Origin: a virus
DNA: 42,118 nucleotides
Virus record (IMG/VR): IMGVR_UViG_3300008952_000105
Location: 1-42,118 of that record
Reading direction: 5' to 3' (one strand)
Below the pieces are notes generated by a model. The model was not told the DNA's origin, ran no database searches, and was given only the letters and a program-made list of their open reading frames with translations. The translations under genes and the position numbers were made by a program. Below are positions 873 to 30,751 of the stretch, piece after piece; within the stretch, counting starts at the first letter, position 1, and every line of letters begins with the position of its first letter.

Positions 873-1550
873 ATGTTAGTCAGTAGAGATAAAAAGCTTT
901 ACAACATGCTTGTCTTGGAGGCGAAATTCCTTAAAGCGGAACTCATTATGGATGAAGAGATCTTCGAAGACGCGCAGCTAGATTTTGCTGAAGCCTACAA
1001 CAAAGTTTGCGAGACTTGTCCAATTGATGAACAAGAAGTTCTCCAGGGAGCCATGAATAAGACTAAAAAAGAGGACGAGCCAAAAAAGAAATCAAACCTG
1101 AGTAAAGCCGGCAAAAGAGCAAAACAAAAAAATAAAAAAGAAAAGGAAGAAGAGCTACCCACAAAGAAGATAAAGAAGAAGAATCCCGACTCTAAGAGTG
1201 TTAAGAAGCTATACAGGGCTATAGCAAGAGAGTCCCACCCAGATGCGCTTATAGGGGTATCTAGTGAAGAGGCACAAAAGAAGGAGGAGTTGTTCAGGAG
1301 AGCACAACAGGCTTCAGAGAATGCAGACTTGTCAGATTTGTTGGAAATAGCAGAAGACTTGAACATCAGCCCACCGGACCCAGAAAAAGAACACATACAA
1401 ATATTAAAAAAAAATATAAAAAATCTCAAACAAGCGATTAAAATGGTAAAAGATACTACCGCCTGGCAGTGGTATCACACAGAAAATGAGGAACGAAAAG
1501 AGGCAATTTTGATAAGATATATGCAATACGTTTACCAGACTTTTAAATGA
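873..1550 (+). CDS. J-domain (DnaJ-like) phage protein
   Basis: A 225-residue protein. Residues about 65-107 form a Lys/Glu-rich, probably disordered linker. Residues about 108-165 look like a J-domain: helix II (KKLYRAIARESHPD) ends in the invariant HPD tripeptide at 122-124, followed by an acidic helix (EEAQKKEELFRRAQQASENA). In the J-protein family the HPD loop stimulates Hsp70/DnaK ATPase. There is no Gly/Phe region or zinc-finger domain, so it would be a minimal class C J-protein. It sits 3 bases after a structural gene and its stop overlaps the next start (ATGA, 1547-1550), which implies translational coupling. A role in folding or assembling virion parts with host DnaK, or in remodelling replication complexes, is inference. 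The domain call is fairly firm; the function is not. Confidence 0.75.
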   Translation: MLVSRDKKLYNMLVLEAKFLKAELIMDEEIFEDAQLDFAEAYNKVCETCPIDEQEVLQGAMNKTKKEDEPKKKSNLSKAGKRAKQKNKKEKEEELPTKKIKKKNPDSKSVKKLYRAIARESHPDALIGVSSEEAQKKEELFRRAQQASENADLSDLLEIAEDLNISPPDPEKEHIQILKKNIKNLKQAIKMVKDTTAWQWYHTENEERKEAILIRYMQYVYQTFK

Positions 1551-2086
1551 TTTTAGGACTAGACATTTCAACAAGTATTACAGGAGCGACCATTCTCGAC
1601 ATGGATGGTAATATTGTCGCGTGTGAATCGTGGGACATGAGGAACAAAAAGCATTTCAAAGACTTATTTGACAAGGCCGAAGGCGTCCGACTTTGGCTTT
1701 TGGGGATAGCCCTAAAACACAAGATACAAGAGATCTACATAGAAGAGCCATTTAAATTTTTTAATTCCGGAGGATCATCTGCGAAGACGATGTCAATATT
1801 ACAAAGCTTTAATGGCATGGTTTCGTGGACAGCGTTCAGAATGCTTGGAAAGAAGCCGAATTATATATCCGCATCCGAAGCGAGAAAGACCTGCGGCATC
1901 ACTGTTCCACGAGGAACAAAGGCAAAGGAAGTTGTTTTGGATTTTGTTCTTGACAAGAACCCGTCTTTCGAGGTAGAATATACAAAGTTTGGCAATCCTA
2001 AACCCGGTGTAACAGATCGTGCGGATAGCTGGGTTATAGCAAAGGCAGGGTTGATTAAATGGCAGGAGAAAAACTTGAAATCCTAG
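1547..2086 (+). CDS. RuvC-like Holliday junction resolvase
   Basis: A 179-residue protein with the RNase H-like fold signature of RuvC endonucleases. It opens with the strand ILGLDIS (D6), has an acidic motif IYIEEPF (E66/E67), and a late DRADSWVIAKAG motif (D157, D160), giving the expected set of metal-binding acids. RuvC-family enzymes cut branched DNA. In T4 the equivalent job before packaging is done by the unrelated gp49 endonuclease VII, and no endonuclease VII candidate is visible here. The start overlaps the J-domain gene stop (ATGA) and the end overlaps the primase start by 28 bases, so this is a tightly coupled DNA-processing operon. Length is typical of the RuvC family. Confidence 0.82.
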   Translation: MILGLDISTSITGATILDMDGNIVACESWDMRNKKHFKDLFDKAEGVRLWLLGIALKHKIQEIYIEEPFKFFNSGGSSAKTMSILQSFNGMVSWTAFRMLGKKPNYISASEARKTCGITVPRGTKAKEVVLDFVLDKNPSFEVEYTKFGNPKPGVTDRADSWVIAKAGLIKWQEKNLKS

Positions 2087-2985
2087 AAGGGGTCCTCGGC
2101 AGATCTTACCAGTCGGGAGAAGAATATCTATTTAAGTGCCCCAAATGCGACCACGACAAAAGAAAACTATCTATAAATATCGAAAAAGGAGTGTTCAAAT
2201 GTTGGGTTTGCGGATATTCCGGATTAAAGATTGTAAAACTCTTAAAGAGATATGCTCCATATTCTGAACACAAGAGATGGTCTGACCTAGATGGAACAGT
2301 AGATATAACTACTTTCGACGACCTTTTCAAGACAAAGGAACCAAAGGTTCCAGAAGTTGTTAACTTGCCAGAGTCTTTCAAGACTTTGACGGGAAATTCA
2401 GGACCCCTAAGTGCTCGCCATGCTAGGTCGTACTTGAGGAAGAGGGGCGTAACGAAGGAAGATATCCTGAGATGGAAGATAGGGTTTTGCGACGAAGGTG
2501 AATATGCTGGAAGAATATGTGTACCTTCTTTTGATAATCATGGAGACTTAAACTATTTCATAGCAAGATCGTATGGTAATCAATTTCCAAAATATAAGAA
2601 TCCTCCATCAAGTAGGGACATAGTATTTAATGATTTATATACTGACTGGGACAAGCCCGTAGTTTTGGTCGAGGGCGTGTTCGACGCCATCGTCGCAGGC
2701 AACGCGGTTCCTATTTTGGGGTCTTTCCTTAGAGAGGGTTCTGAATTATTTCAAAAAATTATTAAAGAAAAAGCAACCATATACATGGCTTTGGACCCAG
2801 ACGCATTCGAAAAAGAGAAAAGAATAATAAATTTGCTTCTAGAATATGATATAACTGTATATAAGGTAGACGTCTCACCGTATGAGGATGTGGGCAGTAT
2901 GTCCAGGTCTGAATTTGAGACAAGAAAGAAAGAAGCGACCATTATTGATTCGACAGACTACTTATATCAGTGTTTGAGGTTTTAG
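2059..2985 (+). CDS. DNA primase, DnaG-type with zinc-binding domain and TOPRIM
   Basis: A 308-residue protein. A CHC2-type zinc-binding domain lies at the N-terminus: C27-x2-C30 and C48-x2-C51. A TOPRIM core follows at about residues 198-270, with the VEG motif glutamate E205 (VVLVEGVFDAI) and the DxD acids D246/D248 (MALDPDA). This arrangement matches DnaG-type primases that make RNA primers for lagging-strand synthesis. The protein is shorter than bacterial DnaG and has no recognisable helicase-binding C-domain, as is common in phage primases such as T4 gp61. It overlaps the resolvase gene by 28 bases. A separate replicative helicase is expected elsewhere in the genome. Confidence 0.85.
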   Translation: MAGEKLEILEGVLGRSYQSGEEYLFKCPKCDHDKRKLSINIEKGVFKCWVCGYSGLKIVKLLKRYAPYSEHKRWSDLDGTVDITTFDDLFKTKEPKVPEVVNLPESFKTLTGNSGPLSARHARSYLRKRGVTKEDILRWKIGFCDEGEYAGRICVPSFDNHGDLNYFIARSYGNQFPKYKNPPSSRDIVFNDLYTDWDKPVVLVEGVFDAIVAGNAVPILGSFLREGSELFQKIIKEKATIYMALDPDAFEKEKRIINLLLEYDITVYKVDVSPYEDVGSMSRSEFETRKKEATIIDSTDYLYQCLRF

Positions 2986-3215: not shown

Positions 3216-3247
3216 ACTATAATATAATCTAGATAAATGGAGGATAC

Positions 3248-6200
3248 ATGAGATTCGCGCATATTGCGGACACCCACATTAGAAATCTTAAATATCATTT
3301 TGAATATAGAGAGGTTTTTGATCAGCTCTATCGATCACTGATTGATAGTAACGTGGATTATATTATTCACTGCGGGGACATCGCACACACTAAGACACAA
3401 ATTTCACCAGAGTTTGTAGACATGGCACGAGATTTTTTCGAAAATCTTAGCAATATTGCCCCAACATATATAATTTTAGGAAATCATGATGGCAATTTGC
3501 GTAACCACAACCGCCAAGACGCCCTGAGTCCAATTGTTAAAGCAATTGGTTCCCCTAACTTACATTTAATTAAGAACGCAGGAGAGGTGCATCTTGACGA
3601 CAAGTTTTGCCTTAATGTGTTATCTGTGTTTGACGAAGAGAACTGGGTCGACCCAACAGATCCAGACAAGATAAATATAGCCCTCTATCATGGAGCCATC
3701 GATAAATCTAAGACCGACTTAAACTGGACCCTCGGCGGCGACCACGACATTGAGATCTTCAGTGAGTTTGATTTTGCCTTTTTGGGAGATATACATAAGA
3801 CTCAACCTCTCGACAAGGACGGCCGTATCTGGTATGCGGGCTCAACTGTTCAGCAGAACTTCGGAGAATCACTAGATAAGGGTTATTTACTGTGGGATAT
3901 TGAGAGCAAAGATGAGTTTACCAATAAGTTAATCACTTTCGATAATCCAAAACCATTTATCACAATCCCCCTCACCAACAAGGGAGACCTACCAGACGAT
4001 ATAAGTGTTCCGAAGGGTGCGAGGTTGAGGCTTGTATCTGATAGTAGTATTTCTCTAGATAAGATGCGCCATGCAGTAGAGATAATCAAGTACAGGCACG
4101 ATCCAGAGTCTGTTACCTATTTGAATCGCGCAGCTACAAAAAAGATAACCTTAGATTCTGGGGATGGGTTCGAACAAAAAGATCTAAGAGACCTAAAGAC
4201 ACAAGAGGATTTAATAAAAGGCTATTTAAAGGATTTTCAAGTATCTGACGATGTAATGAAGCGCGTATTGGACCTGAACTCAAGGTACAATAAGGCTATT
4301 GAGCAAAAAGAGGACACATATAGGAATATAAGTTGGAGCCTCAAATCTCTAGAGTGGGACAATATGTTCAATTACGGAGAGGGAAATAGAATTGATTTTG
4401 CCAAACTAGAAGGCATCGTAGGTATTTTCGGAAAGAATTTCTCCGGCAAGTCCTCTGTCGTGGACTCTTTGTTATTTTCTTTGTATAACTCTACGTCAAA
4501 ATCCGTAAGAAGGAACTTGAACGTCATCAACCAAAACGAGGATAAGTGTTCGGTAAGGGCGATTGTTGGCGTTGATGATAAGACATATTTGATTGATAGA
4601 CGTGCTGAAAAGTATGTAAAGAAGCTAAAGGGAGAAGAGACACTTGAGGCAAAAACAGACCTAGATTTTGAAACTGTAGATTTGCTTGGGAACAGGACAA
4701 GTCTAAACGGAACCTCAAGACAAGACACTGACAGAAACATCAGAAAGTACTTTGGCACACTAGATGATTTTCTATCAACTTCTATGGCAAGTCAGCTTGA
4801 TTCTCTGTCTTTCGTAAATGAGGGATCTACAAAGAGAAAAGAAATATTGGCAAAGTTTCTAGATCTAGAGATTTTTGACAAAAAGTTCAAGATGGCAAAA
4901 GAGGATAGTTCTCTAACTAAGGGCGCATTAAAGAAGCTTGAAGATGTGGACTACGATTCCATGATAGAGGAAGCGAAGAAGAAGATCACAGAAAGTGAAA
5001 TAGCTATTGTGAGGAACAAAGCCATTTGCGAAACTCTAAAAGAGGATATTCAAGAAATCTCCCTGGAGATGAGCGAGGTGCAAGAAAAGATAGACTCTGT
5101 TCCGACAGAAATCATTGACATAAAATCGCTAAGAAAAAAGATTTCCAGAGAGGAAAATAAAGTCGAGCACCTCTCGGATAAAAATGATTCTACGCAAAAT
5201 GAATTGCGAGAGAGCCAGGCGCTCTATTCCAAAATAGAGGATTTTTTGGGAGAATTTGACATTGGCTCTTATCAAGAAAAGAGAGAAAAGATCATAGAAA
5301 ACAAGGATCGGTTAGAGTTTCTCTTATCTCAGATGAAATGGATCTCCGAAGAGAAGACAAAATTAGTCAGAAAAGGAGATATGATGTGCAGTGGTTGTTC
5401 CGAGATTTTGGGCTCCGTAATCAAAGAAAAAGAAGCGAACATGTCTGCCATCAGCACAGAGATAAACAATGTAGGAAGCGGTCTCAAATCTGAAGAGCAG
5501 CAGAAAATTGATGAATACATTGAAAAATATAATAGACTTCTGGACAAGAAGAACACAGTAGCCAATTCCATGGCAGAGATGCAGATATCTCTAGAGAAGA
5601 ACAAGACGGAGATTCTTAGATCTAAGCACGTACTGAAGGATTTGTCGGCAAAAGAACAAGAGTACGAGAGCAACAGAGAGGCGATTGAAAACCTAGAGTC
5701 TCTGTTGGGTCACAGGAGAGAGTGTGAAAAGATCCACCAAATAAAACAAAAGGAGTATGATCAGTGTCACGAAGACATGTTGTCTTTTCACAAGTCATAC
5801 GGATCCATGGAAGAAAAGCTTAAGTCCCTGAAGGAGCAGCAGGGGGAATACAAGACTTTAGCAACGGACTTCGCAGCATATGACTTATTGATGTCTTGTG
5901 CTCACCCTAACGGCATTTCCTATAATATCATAAAGGAGAGATTGCCAATAATTAACCAGGAGATTGCGAAGATCCTTACCAACATAGTGGACTTTGAAAT
6001 CTTTATTCAGAACAGTGATAAAAAATTGGATATCTTTATTAAGCATCCAAAGCACGACCCTAGACCCCTGGAGATGGGATCTGGAGCAGAGAAGACGATA
6101 GCCTCGATGGCTCTTCGATTGGCCTTTTTGACAGTATCAAGCCTGCCGAAGTCGGACTTGTTCATTTTGGATGAGCCCGGAACTGCCTTGGATGAGGAAA

Positions 6201-6349
6201 ATATGGAAGGATTTGTTAGAATCCTGGACATGGTTAAGGGATATTTTAAGACGGTAATTCTTATTTCACATCTAGATACTTTAAAGGATTGCGTGGATAT
6301 GCAGATCAGCATTGAGAGGAAGTCTGGCTTTGCACACGTTAATATATAG
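3248..6349 (+). CDS. SbcD/Mre11 nuclease - SbcC/Rad50 ATPase single-chain fusion (T4 gp47-gp46 equivalents)
   Basis: One open frame of 1033 residues. Residues 1-about 340 are an Mre11/SbcD calcineurin-like phosphoesterase: DTH (D8, H10), GD (D44), GNHD (79-81), H148 and GDIH (to H183). Residues about 365-1033 are a Rad50/SbcC-type ABC ATPase: Walker A GKNFSGKS (395-402), a long coiled coil with a zinc hook C714-S-G-C717 at its centre, a signature region at MGSGAEKT (943-950), Walker B FILDEPG (D975/E976) and an ISH H-loop near 1009. In known Mre11-Rad50 systems, including T4 gp47/gp46, the two are separate proteins that form an exonuclease for end resection and host DNA degradation. Here both are intact in one chain, so the fusion should enforce 1:1 stoichiometry. 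No stop or frame change occurs at the junction. A near-consensus sigma70 promoter precedes it. Confidence 0.93.
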   Translation: MRFAHIADTHIRNLKYHFEYREVFDQLYRSLIDSNVDYIIHCGDIAHTKTQISPEFVDMARDFFENLSNIAPTYIILGNHDGNLRNHNRQDALSPIVKAIGSPNLHLIKNAGEVHLDDKFCLNVLSVFDEENWVDPTDPDKINIALYHGAIDKSKTDLNWTLGGDHDIEIFSEFDFAFLGDIHKTQPLDKDGRIWYAGSTVQQNFGESLDKGYLLWDIESKDEFTNKLITFDNPKPFITIPLTNKGDLPDDISVPKGARLRLVSDSSISLDKMRHAVEIIKYRHDPESVTYLNRAATKKITLDSGDGFEQKDLRDLKTQEDLIKGYLKDFQVSDDVMKRVLDLNSRYNKAIEQKEDTYRNISWSLKSLEWDNMFNYGEGNRIDFAKLEGIVGIFGKNFSGKSSVVDSLLFSLYNSTSKSVRRNLNVINQNEDKCSVRAIVGVDDKTYLIDRRAEKYVKKLKGEETLEAKTDLDFETVDLLGNRTSLNGTSRQDTDRNIRKYFGTLDDFLSTSMASQLDSLSFVNEGSTKRKEILAKFLDLEIFDKKFKMAKEDSSLTKGALKKLEDVDYDSMIEEAKKKITESEIAIVRNKAICETLKEDIQEISLEMSEVQEKIDSVPTEIIDIKSLRKKISREENKVEHLSDKNDSTQNELRESQALYSKIEDFLGEFDIGSYQEKREKIIENKDRLEFLLSQMKWISEEKTKLVRKGDMMCSGCSEILGSVIKEKEANMSAISTEINNVGSGLKSEEQQKIDEYIEKYNRLLDKKNTVANSMAEMQISLEKNKTEILRSKHVLKDLSAKEQEYESNREAIENLESLLGHRRECEKIHQIKQKEYDQCHEDMLSFHKSYGSMEEKLKSLKEQQGEYKTLATDFAAYDLLMSCAHPNGISYNIIKERLPIINQEIAKILTNIVDFEIFIQNSDKKLDIFIKHPKHDPRPLEMGSGAEKTIASMALRLAFLTVSSLPKSDLFILDEPGTALDEENMEGFVRILDMVKGYFKTVILISHLDTLKDCVDMQISIERKSGFAHVNI

Positions 6350-8454: not shown

Positions 8455-10041
8455 ATGACCTTCAAATTAACCAAGAAGGAAGTAATGAAAGAAATTGTCC
8501 GTTGCGGCAAGGATCCGAACTACTTTATAAATAATTATGCAAAAATAACTCACCCACAAAAGGGACTAATCCCCTTTAAGCTTTACGACTTTCAGGAAGA
8601 CTTAGTCAAAGACTATCTGGATCACCGATTTAACGTTATTTTAAAAGCTAGACAGTTGGGCATCTCCACTATCACTGCAGCCTATGTTGTGTGGTTGATG
8701 TTGTTCCACAGAGAAAAGAATGTCCTGGTAATCGCGACGAAGTTTGGAACAGCGTCAAACCTAGTAAAAAAAGTTAAGAACATACTGAAGAACGTGCCAG
8801 ATTTCTTAACAATAGCAACGGTCAGTGTTGACAATAGGACTTCGTTCGAACTTACGAACGGGTCTCAGATAAAAGCGTCATCCACCAGTGGGGACGCCGG
8901 CCGTTCAGAAGCTCTTTCTCTTCTTGTTATTGATGAGGCAGCCCACGTCGACGGACTAGACGACTTGTGGATGGGCTTGTACCCTACTTTGTCAACTGGT
9001 GGACGCTGTATCGCCCTATCCACTCCAAACGGTGTGGGTAATTGGTTTCACAAGACGTACATCGAAGCAGACCAAAGGCTAAATGATTTTTATGCAACTG
9101 TTCTACCCTGGGACCGTCACCCCGACAGAGACAAGGATTGGTTCGAAAAAGAAACAAAAAATATGTCCAGGAGAGAAATCGCACAAGAACTTGAGTGCAA
9201 TTTTAATATGTCGGGCGAGACTGTTTTCCACGGAGATGATATCGCTTGGATAGAAAATTTAATTAGAGAGCCAAAATACAGAACAGGTTTTGACAGAAAT
9301 TATTGGATATGGGAAGAGTTCGCCCCCGGCGAGGATTACCTAATATCTGCTGATGTTGCGAGAGGCGACGGTAGAGACTATTCAGTCTTTCATACGATAA
9401 AACTATCGACAATGGAGGTCATAGCGGAATATCAAGGAAAAGTAACGCCAGATGTATTTTCCGACATACTATATAATTCAGGGAGAGAGTACGGAAACTG
9501 TATGGTAGTTGTTGAAAATAATTCTGTCGGGTATGCTGTTCTTGAAAAGCTCCGAGAAAAAGGATATCCAAACGTTTATCACTCAATAAAATCAACTCAT
9601 GAGTACATCGACCAGATTAGAGCAGAAAATTTATCAAATGCGATTGCCGGATTTACAACTTCTTCCAAAACTAGACCATTAGTTATCGCTAAGATGGAGG
9701 AATTCATAAGAAATAAACTAATTAAAGTATATTCCACACGACTCTTGAACGAGATGAAGACTTTTGTGTGGAATAACGGAAAACCAGAAGCAATGAGGAG
9801 TTATAACGATGACCTCGTTATGGCTTGCGCGATAGGCTGCTGGATAAGGGACACAGCATTGGTAGAAAACCAGAGAAATACAGAATATAAGAGGGCGTGT
9901 TTGGATTCTATGATTGTCACGAATAATAGACTGGATACCACCATACCTGGTCAAAATACCTATAAAAACAAGAGTATTTTTGATAAAATACAGAAGACGA
10001 AGAGTCAACATGAGCAGTTCCCGTGGCTGTTTAAGGGATAA
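8455..10041 (+). CDS. terL: Terminase large subunit (gp17-like)
   Basis: A 528-residue protein. The ATPase domain has a Walker A variant KARQLGIST (64-72), like the SRQLGKTT form of T4 gp17, and Walker B LLVIDEAAH (D160/E161). The C-terminal RNase H-type nuclease has ISADVARGDGRDYS (D300), VVVENNSVG (E354) and YNDDLVMA (D452/D453), completing the metal-binding set. It powers headful-type DNA packaging through the portal and cuts the concatemer. Portal follows after 5 bases, the standard packaging arrangement. Length is slightly below T4 gp17 (610), mainly at the N-terminus. Confidence 0.95.
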   Translation: MTFKLTKKEVMKEIVRCGKDPNYFINNYAKITHPQKGLIPFKLYDFQEDLVKDYLDHRFNVILKARQLGISTITAAYVVWLMLFHREKNVLVIATKFGTASNLVKKVKNILKNVPDFLTIATVSVDNRTSFELTNGSQIKASSTSGDAGRSEALSLLVIDEAAHVDGLDDLWMGLYPTLSTGGRCIALSTPNGVGNWFHKTYIEADQRLNDFYATVLPWDRHPDRDKDWFEKETKNMSRREIAQELECNFNMSGETVFHGDDIAWIENLIREPKYRTGFDRNYWIWEEFAPGEDYLISADVARGDGRDYSVFHTIKLSTMEVIAEYQGKVTPDVFSDILYNSGREYGNCMVVVENNSVGYAVLEKLREKGYPNVYHSIKSTHEYIDQIRAENLSNAIAGFTTSSKTRPLVIAKMEEFIRNKLIKVYSTRLLNEMKTFVWNNGKPEAMRSYNDDLVMACAIGCWIRDTALVENQRNTEYKRACLDSMIVTNNRLDTTIPGQNTYKNKSIFDKIQKTKSQHEQFPWLFKG

Positions 10042-27547: not shown

Positions 27548-30500
27548 ATGTCCGTTGATAGATTTAAGTTCGTCTCACCCGGAGTACAAATAAACGAAAT
27601 TGATAATAGCCAATTTGGACCGGAGCCAAACAGACCTGGCCCGGCAATAATAGGTAGATTTGAGAGGGGTCCAAGTAACCGCCCCATCCGTGTAGAATCT
27701 GTATCAGATTTTATACGAATTTTTGGCAACCCTATCCCAGGAGGTAGAGGTGGTGATGCCTGGAGAGAGGGTAACAAGATGGGTCCCACATACGCTGGTT
27801 ACGCTGCGTTGGCTTACCTTAGAAACGCCGCTCCAGCTACTATAGTAAGAGTTTTGGGAGAGGCTCACGATGATGCAACATCAACATCAAACGGTCCTGC
27901 CGGCTGGGCTCTAGATAACGCCCACGTAGCGGCAACCAGTACGACCCCAGCCTCCGGAGGCGGCGCATACGGTCTATTCTTATTTTCCAGTGGTTCTGGT
28001 CAGAGAGATCATGTTGGGGCTTTCTTAGGAGCACCTTCTGCTACGGCTTCCGCCGGCGCTAATTCTGTCGACGCATGGTTGAACGTGAACAGTGGTAATC
28101 GTGCTTCCAGTGCAACAACTGGATCACTTGCGGCAGTATGGTATTTCGACGCTGGAGCCATCGAACTTTCGGGTACGCTTCTTCCAGGCTTCAACATTGG
28201 TTTTGCAACGTCCTCAACCCATCTCCCACCCGGATCACCGTCGGGAGGAGGACACACCAGGACTTTTGGACAAGCAGCAGGAAATTCCTTGGCATTAAGA
28301 AGTAGCAATACTGCCAATATGGAGTTCACGGCGGTTCTTTTTGACAATGCTAATGTTGGTAAGAAGGTCACATTTAATTTCGATAGAAACAGTGACAACT
28401 ATATTAGAAAAGTATTTAACACAAATCCAGCTTTGGCTGGTGCTCAAGTCAGCTCTGGAAAGAAGTACTGGCTAGGAGAATCCTTTGATCGACACGCTAG
28501 GGATATGCATGGCTCGACGCTCCACGAAGGTGCACTGACTGCCGACTCTTCCCTCTATGGCGTCATCGTAGGACTCAAGGGTACTTCCGGAACAGCAGAT
28601 TGGGGATCCAATCAGAAGAGCACACAACCTGCAAAGACCGGCTGGTTTATCTCCCAGGACGTGACCAGCAACAGTACTCAATTCGACGCTGGCAAGCAAC
28701 AAAAGCTATTTAGGCTTGTAGCTCTAGATGACGGAGCTTGGGCAGGAAGAAATATAAAGGTTTCTATCTCTGACCACAAACTAGGCACAGAAGTCAGTCC
28801 TTACGGAACCTTTACCGTCACTCTACGTCACGCAAAGGACACCGATGGCAGCCCAAGAGTACTAGAGAGATTTTCTCAGTGTACCCTAGATCCACAATCT
28901 CCGAATTACATTGCAGCAAAGATTGGTAACCAATACCAAGAATGGGATAGTTACGAACAGAGATATAGATCATACAACTCTTACCCAAATCGTTCAGCAT
29001 TTGTGAGAGTGGAAATGGACTCGGACGTACATGAGGGTATGACCGACGCAGCAATGTTGCCATTTGGCTTTTTTGGTCCGCCAAGATACAAGGCAGTTAG
29101 CCTTGCTCACAATGGCATTGGCGATGGTCAGTACTCGATATTAACGGTACACTCGGCTTCTAGTGATGTTGAGGGCACTCTCGCCGCGTCGACCCTCGCT
29201 CACACAGCGGTATTTGGTAGTGGTAGTTTGATGCTCGCAAGCGCAGTATCAACGTCTCCTTTTAAGAGTTCGGCTGTCTTCGCTGCAGCACTCACCGCCT
29301 CGGTCCCAGGCATTACAGGCATCACGGGCGAGCTAGTTGGGAATCACAATCCAGCAGCAAGGGTTCTTTTCCCAAGTCTGCCTTTGAGAATGTCTGCTTC
29401 TGCAGAGGGTCTAAGAAATAATAAGCAAGCTCACTTTGGTGTCTTCACTGGACGTGCTCCTGGAGACCCAACATTCGACGAATCTTACTGGGACATCACC
29501 AGGGGTGGACAGGGCGTCCCTGCCGACGCGTGGGACTCTGCCACCAGCGGAGATGGATCTACTCTAGAAACATCGTTCATATTCTCTCTGGATGACCTCG
29601 TTGGAACAAATGCGGTAGGCACAAGCCTAACTGACATGTTCTATATGTCTGGTTCCCGAAAGATGGGCAACAGCTACACGGTAAAGCAGAGCGTTAAGGA
29701 GCTTGTTAAGTCTGGGTTTACCAACTTCACCTCGCCTATGTATGGCGGATTTGACGGACTTACTGTAAAGGAGAGGGCACCATTGGGTAACCATATAGTA
29801 GGTGCTGACAACCAGACTTTCCAGAGTAACGCAGCAGCTAACTCGATCAAGAGGGCAATCGACTCAGTCGGAGACCCAGAGGTTGCAGACATTAACATGA
29901 TTTGCGTCCCAGGCGTCCGTGCTCCTTTAGTCACCGACCACATAATCAGAGTCGCTGAAGACAGAGGAGACTGCTTGGCTATTATAGACGTCGAAAACAA
30001 CGGCTATCAACCATCTAGTGAGACTACTAGCAACTTTAAGACAAGAATCACCAACAACAGTGTTAAGACTTGTGTTGAGAATCTTGAAAAGAGAAATATA
30101 AATTCAAGCTATGCTTGCACGTACTTTCCATGGGTCAAGATCAGGGATGACATTTCCAACAAGGATCTTTGGGTACCGCCATCAGTAGTGGCACTTGGAA
30201 CGTTCGCGTCCACTGAGAGAAATTCTGATCTATGGTTTGCACCAGCAGGATTCACCAGAGGTGGCTTGAGTGACGGCTTGGCAGGTGTACCTGTCTTGTC
30301 AACATCACAAAGACTCTCTTCTCGTGACAGAGACGACCTATATGAGGCAAACATTAATCCGATAGCTACTTTCCCAGCAGAGGGAATTGTAATCTTTGGA
30401 CAAAAGACGCTACAGGTAACGCCTTCTGCACTTGACAGAATCAATGTTAGAAGACTTGTGGTGTTCTTGAAGAAGGAAATTTCTAGGATGGCTTCAGGGC

Positions 30501-30751
30501 TCTTGTTTGAGCCTAATGTGAACGCCACCTGGAACAGATTCAGAGGTCAAGTAGAGCCATTCTTGAGTTCTGTGAAAGCCAACTTTGGTCTTGAGCAGTA
30601 CAGGGTCGTATTGGACGAAACTACTACTACTCCTGATTTGGTAGACAGAAACATCATGTATGCAAAGATATTCATAAAGCCAGCTAAGGCTTTGGAGTTC
30701 ATCGCAATTGACTTTATCATAACAAATAATGGTGCAGCATTCGATGATTAA
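27548..30751 (+). CDS. gp18: Tail sheath protein (gp18-like), enlarged
   Basis: A 1067-residue protein, against 659 in T4 gp18. The N-terminus (FVSPGVQINEIDNSQFGPEP, then GPAIIGRFERGPSNRP) is the typical sheath start. The C-terminal third carries the conserved core: DPEVADINMICVPGVRAPLV, DCLAIIDVEN, YACTYFPWVKIRD, LDRINVRRLVVFLKKEI and FIAIDFIITNNG at the end. The extra about 400 residues lie mainly between about 110 and 700 and are Gly/Ser/Ala/Thr-rich, as expected for domains displayed on the outside of the sheath. The sheath surrounds the tube and contracts during infection. It is preceded by AAGGAG and the gap with two promoter candidates. Confidence 0.93.
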   Translation: MSVDRFKFVSPGVQINEIDNSQFGPEPNRPGPAIIGRFERGPSNRPIRVESVSDFIRIFGNPIPGGRGGDAWREGNKMGPTYAGYAALAYLRNAAPATIVRVLGEAHDDATSTSNGPAGWALDNAHVAATSTTPASGGGAYGLFLFSSGSGQRDHVGAFLGAPSATASAGANSVDAWLNVNSGNRASSATTGSLAAVWYFDAGAIELSGTLLPGFNIGFATSSTHLPPGSPSGGGHTRTFGQAAGNSLALRSSNTANMEFTAVLFDNANVGKKVTFNFDRNSDNYIRKVFNTNPALAGAQVSSGKKYWLGESFDRHARDMHGSTLHEGALTADSSLYGVIVGLKGTSGTADWGSNQKSTQPAKTGWFISQDVTSNSTQFDAGKQQKLFRLVALDDGAWAGRNIKVSISDHKLGTEVSPYGTFTVTLRHAKDTDGSPRVLERFSQCTLDPQSPNYIAAKIGNQYQEWDSYEQRYRSYNSYPNRSAFVRVEMDSDVHEGMTDAAMLPFGFFGPPRYKAVSLAHNGIGDGQYSILTVHSASSDVEGTLAASTLAHTAVFGSGSLMLASAVSTSPFKSSAVFAAALTASVPGITGITGELVGNHNPAARVLFPSLPLRMSASAEGLRNNKQAHFGVFTGRAPGDPTFDESYWDITRGGQGVPADAWDSATSGDGSTLETSFIFSLDDLVGTNAVGTSLTDMFYMSGSRKMGNSYTVKQSVKELVKSGFTNFTSPMYGGFDGLTVKERAPLGNHIVGADNQTFQSNAAANSIKRAIDSVGDPEVADINMICVPGVRAPLVTDHIIRVAEDRGDCLAIIDVENNGYQPSSETTSNFKTRITNNSVKTCVENLEKRNINSSYACTYFPWVKIRDDISNKDLWVPPSVVALGTFASTERNSDLWFAPAGFTRGGLSDGLAGVPVLSTSQRLSSRDRDDLYEANINPIATFPAEGIVIFGQKTLQVTPSALDRINVRRLVVFLKKEISRMASGLLFEPNVNATWNRFRGQVEPFLSSVKANFGLEQYRVVLDETTTTPDLVDRNIMYAKIFIKPAKALEFIAIDFIITNNGAAFDD

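Follow-up and report, generated by a model that had tools for sequence, protein, structure and literature searches.

The Mre11-Rad50 complexes of archaea and eukaryotes and the SbcCD complex of E. coli are each made of two proteins. T4 gp47/gp46 and their cyanophage homologues have the same parts and likely the same role as the protein described here, and in T4 and S-CAM9 they are encoded by two genes with one or two small open reading frames (ORFs) between them. Here we analyze a single gene of a marine phage that encodes both halves as one chain, found in positions 1 to 42,118 of the IMG/VR virus record IMGVR_UViG_3300008952_000105 (this entire stretch of 42,118 nucleotides is referred to as the window). 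The window protein has the folds and nearly all the motifs of the two-protein systems, and is a member of the class of Mre11/Rad50 fusions known since 2011.

That class was described by Yoshida, Claverie and Ogata (PMC3175470), who reported Mimivirus R555 and twelve other sequences, with Bacillus phage 0305phi8-36, plasmids, bacteria, moss, slime moulds and algae named as carriers; in the wider set the fusions form no single group. The same paper argues that domain order and linker fit the known Mre11-Rad50 complex, gives ~28 Å as the distance between the two termini in the T. maritima complex, with 9-12 residues to span it, and notes that Asp replaces His206 of P. furiosus in R555. It further reports that R555 homologues are abundant in marine metagenomes, where they were assigned to viruses, probably many of them phages, and that 40 of 68 scaffolds with such homologues bore viral-like genes, primases included. 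No other published title on phage Mre11-Rad50 fusions turned up in a search of titles, and in a jumbo-phage paper (PMC7824862) the passages on SbcC/SbcD and on "fused" make no mention of an Mre11-Rad50 fusion.

Like the R555 class, the window protein places Mre11 first and Rad50 second, keeps the helix-loop-helix of Mre11, has a short linker and carries Asp at the position of His206. The predicted linker is eight residues long, one short of the ~9-12 expected for the class and within the uncertainty of the helix ends, and the GDxxH and Asp-for-His206 substitutions are found as H47 and D181. As on some of the phage-like scaffolds of 2011, a primase gene lies upstream; the clade of the window is now represented by full-length genes, for which those scaffolds were too short. 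A first-pass annotation of the window had set the fused chain against the two-protein complexes, thereby implying that it was new. This implication is not borne out, as the domain order, the fit to the complex and the abundance in aquatic viruses were all published in 2011 (PMC3175470).

One gene for both halves

The fused gene occupies positions 3248-6349 of the plus strand as a single frame of 1033 codons running from ATG to TAG with no stop inside, just as the first-pass annotation had read it, and its product has an estimated mass of ~118 kDa (from 1033 residues). An Mre11/SbcD-type nuclease (residues 1 to ~354) is followed by an eight-residue linker and a Rad50/SbcC-type ATPase (363-1033) with a CxxC zinc hook. 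Of the 49 relatives that begin with ATG, 44 have a Shine-Dalgarno-like stretch ahead of the start.

The relatives come from a scan of IMG/VR in which 343 of 347 candidate stretches proved to be related; we kept the best 80 (L001-L080), which reach down to ~51% identity and lie on contigs of up to 203 kb. One open frame spans the Mre11/Rad50 junction in all 80: none has a stop or frameshift there, and none has two separate genes. The frame is open over its whole length in 75, giving full-length co-linear matches within a virus collection, and in four (L008, L021, L032, L040) the 5' end is missing at the edge of the contig or stretch. L029, on a 159-kb contig, has an in-frame TGA at residue 199 (8595-8597), far from the junction in an otherwise open gene, which may be an error or real. 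A search of the records behind the loci for a separate SbcD-like copy (13 loci) or SbcC-like copy (12 loci) found none; the single match of each kind is the fused gene. The proposal of a single-chain Mre11-Rad50 in a phage is thus supported by the frame, by both domains and by the fused state of all 80 relatives.

Other one-chain phage proteins with Mre11 ahead of Rad50 are present in GenBank, in Microcystis phage Mel-JY01 (WWT39521.1), Sphingomonas phage PAU (gp288), Tenacibaculum phages PTm1 and pT24, Chryseobacterium phage MA9V-1 and the uncultured LR756501; they are 1066-1326 aa long, and those of the five named phages are filed under other names. The Mel-JY01 protein is 29.5% identical to the window protein over the whole length, and that of LR756501 is 27.7% identical over residues 3-565. 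The PAU, Tenacibaculum and Chryseobacterium proteins were found through LR756501 at 23-24% identity. Compared directly with the window protein, PAU matches in two patches (28% over 116 columns and 24% over 242) and PTm1 only weakly (E 0.001). At an E value of 0.01, Pfam recognizes both sides of MA9V-1 above cut-off, only the ATPase side of PTm1 and only the Metallophos domain of pT24, and the ATPase of PAU falls below cut-off.

Could an error of assembly or sequencing have merged two neighboring genes? Such errors may occur: the predicted-structure library holds a 1009-aa recombination exonuclease entry from Listeria phage LMTA-57. Aligned with the split genes of LMTA-34, the DNA of LMTA-57 (KJ591605 / NC_047871) is 100.0% identical but one base shorter (3200 vs 3201), so that this fusion may be a sequencing error. 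For the fused gene of the window, however, the explanation is refuted by the relatives, and we give it practically no weight: in addition to the 80 IMG/VR relatives, the junction lies in one frame in 20 of 20 relatives of the Mel-JY01 protein (one of which, L114, is broken earlier, in the Mre11 part) and in 10 of 10 relatives of the LR756501 protein. Moreover, divergence across residues 331-375 is 0.33-0.38, 0.24-0.28 and 0.59-0.68 at codon positions 1, 2 and 3, the pattern of translated sequence. The fused gene is genuine and occurs widely in aquatic viruses.

A tree of 38 rows places 10 split pairs and 28 fused rows on opposite sides of one branch (support 100/99), setting the fused rows apart from nine split phage pairs and E. 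coli SbcCD, the sole cellular pair and itself on a long branch. This one-branch result does not show a single origin, as it is biased by the way in which the fused rows were chosen, namely by their resemblance to three fused queries.

Among genome_contigs, 156 stretches fit the search pattern and eight were relatives, all in metagenome-assembled genomes (MAGs) and five of them on contigs of <12 kb; these eight were not counted as cellular fusions. The contigs of L087, L088, L089 and L090, which carry the phage gene, belong to MAGs labelled Acidiferrobacteraceae, Flavobacteriales, WOR-3 and Nitrosopelagicus. The L087 contig has the same size and match as the IMG/VR contig behind L053; L089 (a "WOR-3 chromosome") is a shortened copy, with ORFs further on that run on the other strand. 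L087-L090 are probably viral contigs that were binned together with host sequence or joined to it. On the 286-kb Bacteroidales contig of L093 the match is confined to the Mre11 part.

Conserved residues and family assignment

Conservation was read from an alignment of 36 rows (A1), the window protein and 35 relatives 51-73% identical to it, drawn from the 49 of the 80 loci with an ATG at the expected start (31 excluded) and thinned at 90% identity. Invariant in all 36 rows are D8, H10, D44, N79, H80, H148, D181, H183, K401, Q516, S945, G946, E948, D975, E976 and H1008. The Mre11 phosphoesterase blocks (DxH, GD, GNH, H, GxxH) are accordingly all present and invariant, and the ATPase has the Walker A, signature, Walker B and H-loop motifs, divided by a coiled coil with a two-cysteine hook in its predicted tip loop, the makeup of the Mre11-Rad50 (SbcCD) superfamily. 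The linker is ungapped, and R359, N360 and the adjoining W363 are constant in all rows. An RNxxW linker motif was rejected as a mark of fusion: it is absent from PAU, PTm1, pT24 and MA9V-1, altered in six others, and marks a subclade.

The first-pass annotation had placed its motifs correctly or nearly so (D8xH10, GD 43-44, GNHD 78-81, H148, GDIH 180-183, Walker A 395-402, CSGC 714-717, SGAEK 945-949, LDEP 974-977, H1008). Its description of the Mre11 set as complete is slightly off, since D181 of GDIH replaces the usual His; 9 of the 10 split proteins in the tree, including E. coli SbcD, have GHxH. Asp stands at this position (window 3788-3790) in 27 of the 28 fused rows versus 1 of the 10 split rows, that of Vibrio phage PG07, and the only fused row with His is PAU. 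His at H47, giving GDxxH for GDxxD, occurs in 19 of 28 fused and 3 of 10 split rows and is not specific to fusions. PAU, PTm1, pT24 and MA9V-1 have Gln in place of His10.

Pfam matches on the fused protein are Metallophos at 1-183 (E 2.7e-12) and AAA_23 and SMC_N from 365, all above cut-off, and PHROG matches are the SbcD-like PHROG_100 at 1-356 (1e-32) and the SbcC-like PHROG_77 at 326-1030 (5e-51). The NCBIfam cut-offs for the canonical proteins are missed by a wide margin, with 33.8 of 478.5 bits for SbcC (TIGR00618) and 36.8 of 77.65 bits for SbcD (TIGR00619).

Predicted structure

An AlphaFold model of the window protein, built from 36 rows, has a mean predicted local distance difference test score (pLDDT) of 77.8 and a predicted template-modelling score (pTM) of 0.45, and its catalytic and ATPase folds are predicted to be of the Mre11 and Rad50 type. 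Mre11/SbcD structures match residues 1 to 234-354, among them 7dog_B (Z 24.5, root-mean-square deviation (rmsd) 5.4, 268 residues) and 3tho_B against residues 1-354 (Z 23.8, rmsd 12.2, 322 residues); the Rad50 structure 3qku_A matches residues 363-1033 (Z 23.0, rmsd 4.0, 340 residues). The model retains the Mre11 helix-loop-helix (316-330, 334-354), followed by eight residues and then the first Rad50 strand (363-371).

The top predicted viral matches to the model include long proteins of Tupanvirus, Harvfovirus, Catovirus, Tetraselmis virus and Tenacibaculum phages (1209-1422 alignment columns), annotated as DNA repair exonucleases and similar. These giant-virus and phage proteins are 14-21% identical to the window protein, with template-modelling scores of 0.22-0.46 and a high rmsd, as is common with long, bending arms. 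A lower-ranked match is A7KV18, the protein of Bacillus phage 0305phi8-36 named in PMC3175470.

A proposed one-chain resection machine

We propose that the gene encodes the Mre11-Rad50 (SbcCD, T4 gp47-gp46) end-resection machine as one polypeptide, which would form a homodimer and feed a phage RecA/UvsX-like recombinase. By analogy with characterized relatives, from which its stoichiometry, biochemistry and role are drawn, this is very probably correct. Direct observations cover the open frame, both domains, the invariant positions and the occurrence of one copy per record. Most probably, two chains would pair through their Rad50 heads on ATP, through their Mre11 parts and through the zinc hook, and the dimer would be equivalent to the usual complex of two nucleases and two ATPases with the ratio fixed at 1:1. 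ATP-gated opening would then pass DNA ends or hairpins to the metal-dependent nuclease, yielding 3' single-stranded tails that the recombinase could take into recombination-dependent replication, as in T4. It is reasonable to infer both the 2:2 dimer and the tether between nuclease and ATPase.

Support for a one-chain resection machine comes from the invariant active-site and ATP-site residues, the match of both halves to solved structures and the retention of the helix-loop-helix and linker. It also comes from the single SbcD-like (13/13) and SbcC-like (12/12) match per record, the presence of a RecA family protein (PF00154, above cut-off) in 11 of 12 records behind the relatives, and the primase and RuvC-like neighbors. 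PHROG_97, which we take to be UvsX, matched the same 11 records.

Several points weigh against the proposal. The canonical Mre11 His (His206 of P. furiosus, placed through alignment with GHIH of E. coli) is Asp, so nuclease activity may differ, which slightly lowers our confidence. SMC heads match the model too (Z 19-20), and the fold alone does not tell Rad50 from SMC; the model itself, with its pTM of 0.45, is weak at 294-308 and 392-400. The record without a RecA match (G001, 104 kb) carries a protein identical to that of the window, although it is a fragment and no proof of absence. Finally, the chain might be processed after translation.

This last point belongs to a broader alternative, in which, although translation covers the long frame, the functional form consists of two proteins, made by an internal start or by proteolysis. 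In-frame start codons do occur near the junction, the commonest being an ATG at residue 337 in 37 of 77 rows. However, only six of these are accompanied by a Shine-Dalgarno-like stretch, and no start codon is conserved that could yield Rad50 alone, so a hidden internal Rad50 start was rejected; this and the ungapped linker with its constant residues in A1 make a two-protein product improbable.

A second alternative is that the fused protein has a special task, such as attack on host DNA or hairpin cleavage, in place of general resection. The database record for T4 gp46/47, required for both recombination and host-DNA degradation, and the Asp in the active site both lend themselves to this idea. 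Yet the fused protein is the sole resection candidate, with no second SbcCD-like match in the 12-13 records searched, and a recombinase of the RecA family accompanies it in nearly all of them. We therefore regard a special task as unlikely, if less so than a divided product, and favor general resection by a single chain.

Variation of the zinc hook

The hook of the Rad50 arm varies among the relatives. Among the 80 relatives the two cysteines are spaced as Cx6C (CGxxxxxC) in 61 and as CxxC in 19, so that the window has the minority type, and a YDPxCxxC hook is present in 6 of 77 full rows. The Cx6C relative L013 was modelled as well (34 rows, mean pLDDT 77.5, pTM 0.44); its cysteines 717 and 724 lie in a loop joining helices 671-714 and 725-760. 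The hook motif is termed CXXC in passages of PMC6969161 and PMC9569753, and "cx6c" does not occur in that part of the literature on hook variants that was searched. Comparing a 90-aa tip fragment from a Cx6C relative with 50,697 phage records gave no match at E 1.

Hook type requires nine changes on a tree of the heads only, and the starred branches force nine for Cx6C; this tree (81 rows) was made by a quick method with Shimodaira-Hasegawa-like approximate likelihood-ratio (SH-aLRT) support only, and carries a long-branch warning that concerns mainly the outgroup. The coiled-coil arm diverges fastest among the ten segments compared. We compared arms among 71 distinct proteins, using pairs whose heads are at least 90% identical. 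Pairs with the same hook (n=62) have flanking-arm identities of at least 0.49 (median 0.66), whereas pairs with different hooks (n=15) have 0.26-0.56. These 15 pairs are not independent and amount to three cases, L027 (9), L024 (4) and L060 (2).

In L027 and L024 the neighboring arm differs while the heads stay 90-96% identical. DNA identity between L027, which lies on an 11-kb contig, and L007 is 98% in the first 60 codons, 40% in codons 721-780 and 83-90% from codon 901, as compared with at least 66% throughout for the same-hook control L007 vs L017. The flanks of L060 (0.55-0.56) are no worse than those of the same-hook pair L072 vs L079 (0.55), and therefore only the loop itself need have changed there. 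Our reading of these sequences is that the arm tip was probably replaced by recombination in L027 and L024 and that a more local change took place in L060. The nearest head relative of the window, L003 (83%), has a Cx6C hook and flanks at 0.35; the nearest flanks to those of the window reach only 0.40-0.43, with three CxxC proteins among the best four, and thus no donor of its arm tip is at hand.

Repeated hook changes, together with near-identical heads bearing unrelated arm tips, suggest that the hook is a partly exchangeable module. One could go further and imagine the hook end of the Rad50 arm as an exchangeable cassette (Cx6C, CxxC, YDPxCxxC) serving as a dimer-compatibility tag, the exchange of which would stop the resection machine of one phage from pairing with that of the host or of another phage in the same cell. 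The switching itself comes from measurement; the role in compatibility is conjectural, and we consider it doubtful.

Interrupted relatives

Two other relatives have a fused gene broken within the Mre11 part, after GDIH. In L083 (2944-7169, LR756508) the pieces are separated by a 305-aa ORF that has a TnsA-like endonuclease domain, and in L114 (2983-6223) the pieces are two overlapping ORFs with nothing between. The first pieces of both end in acidic tails. No intron family matched L083 at E values of up to 1. The layout resembles phage genes-in-pieces made by homing endonucleases.

Genome context

The features of the fused gene and its neighborhood are collected in Table 1. Of the 80 IMG/VR loci, 59 have 1.5 kb or more of upstream sequence (21 have less), and 56 of these 59 carry a same-strand primase match, 37 to 3417 bases upstream of the fused gene. 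A RuvC-like match, counted without regard to strand, is found upstream in 54 of 87 loci searched. The genes downstream encode terminase, portal, maturation protease, major head protein, head-tail adaptor and tail sheath. Because of these structural genes and the match of the terminase to the T4-type model, we take the window to be part of a T4-like tailed phage. The tail sheath protein (27548-30751) has 1067 aa, which is long for such a protein, and its sheath domains are confined to the last 300 residues. An ORF at 873-1550 has a weak DnaJ match, below cut-off.

Table 1. Features of the fused gene and of the genes upstream of it (window coordinates)
Feature	Position	Strand	Basis or remark
RuvC-like resolvase gene	1547..2086	+	PHROG_159, E 2.5e-8
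DNA primase gene	2059..2985	+	PHROG_47, E 2e-45; next gene upstream of fused gene
Shine-Dalgarno-like GGAGG	3239..3243	+	4 bases upstream of ATG
Fused mre11-rad50 (sbcD-sbcC) gene	3248..6349	+	1033 codons + TAG
Mre11-type phosphoesterase core, residues 1 to ~220	3248..3907	+	Pfam Metallophos 1-183; model vs SbcD/Mre11 structures; end inferred
Mre11 capping domain, residues ~224-293	3917..4126	+	Inferred from strand/helix order in model
Helix-loop-helix (Rad50-binding element of Mre11), helices 316-330 and 334-354	4193..4309	+	Predicted secondary structure; 3tho_B match
8-residue linker, 355-362	4310..4333	+	Predicted secondary structure; alignment A1
Rad50 ATPase lobe I, residues 363 to ~560	4334..4927	+	Pfam; 3qku_A match to model
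Walker A GKNFSGKS, residues 395-402	4430..4453	+	Motif
Coiled-coil arm, residues ~561-885	4928..5902	+	Predicted helices
Zinc hook CSGC, residues 714-717	5387..5398	+	Loop joining helices 672-712 and 718-744
Rad50 ATPase lobe II, residues 890-1033	5915..6346	+	Predicted secondary structure; structure matches
ABC signature SGAEK, residues 945-949	6080..6094	+	Motif
Walker B LFILDE, residues 971-976	6158..6175	+	Motif; D975/E976

Significance

The fusion itself is of modest interest, and the variation of the hook somewhat more, being the fresher result. The window and its relatives supply full-length phage fusions, one of which, Mel-JY01, comes from a named host. Such a fusion could allow an Mre11-Rad50 system to be expressed from one gene, with mutations placed in either half in cis. 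If the cassette pattern of the hook is true, these phages would also provide natural chimaeras, with nearly the same heads and different hooks, to probe the role of the hook in dimer pairing.

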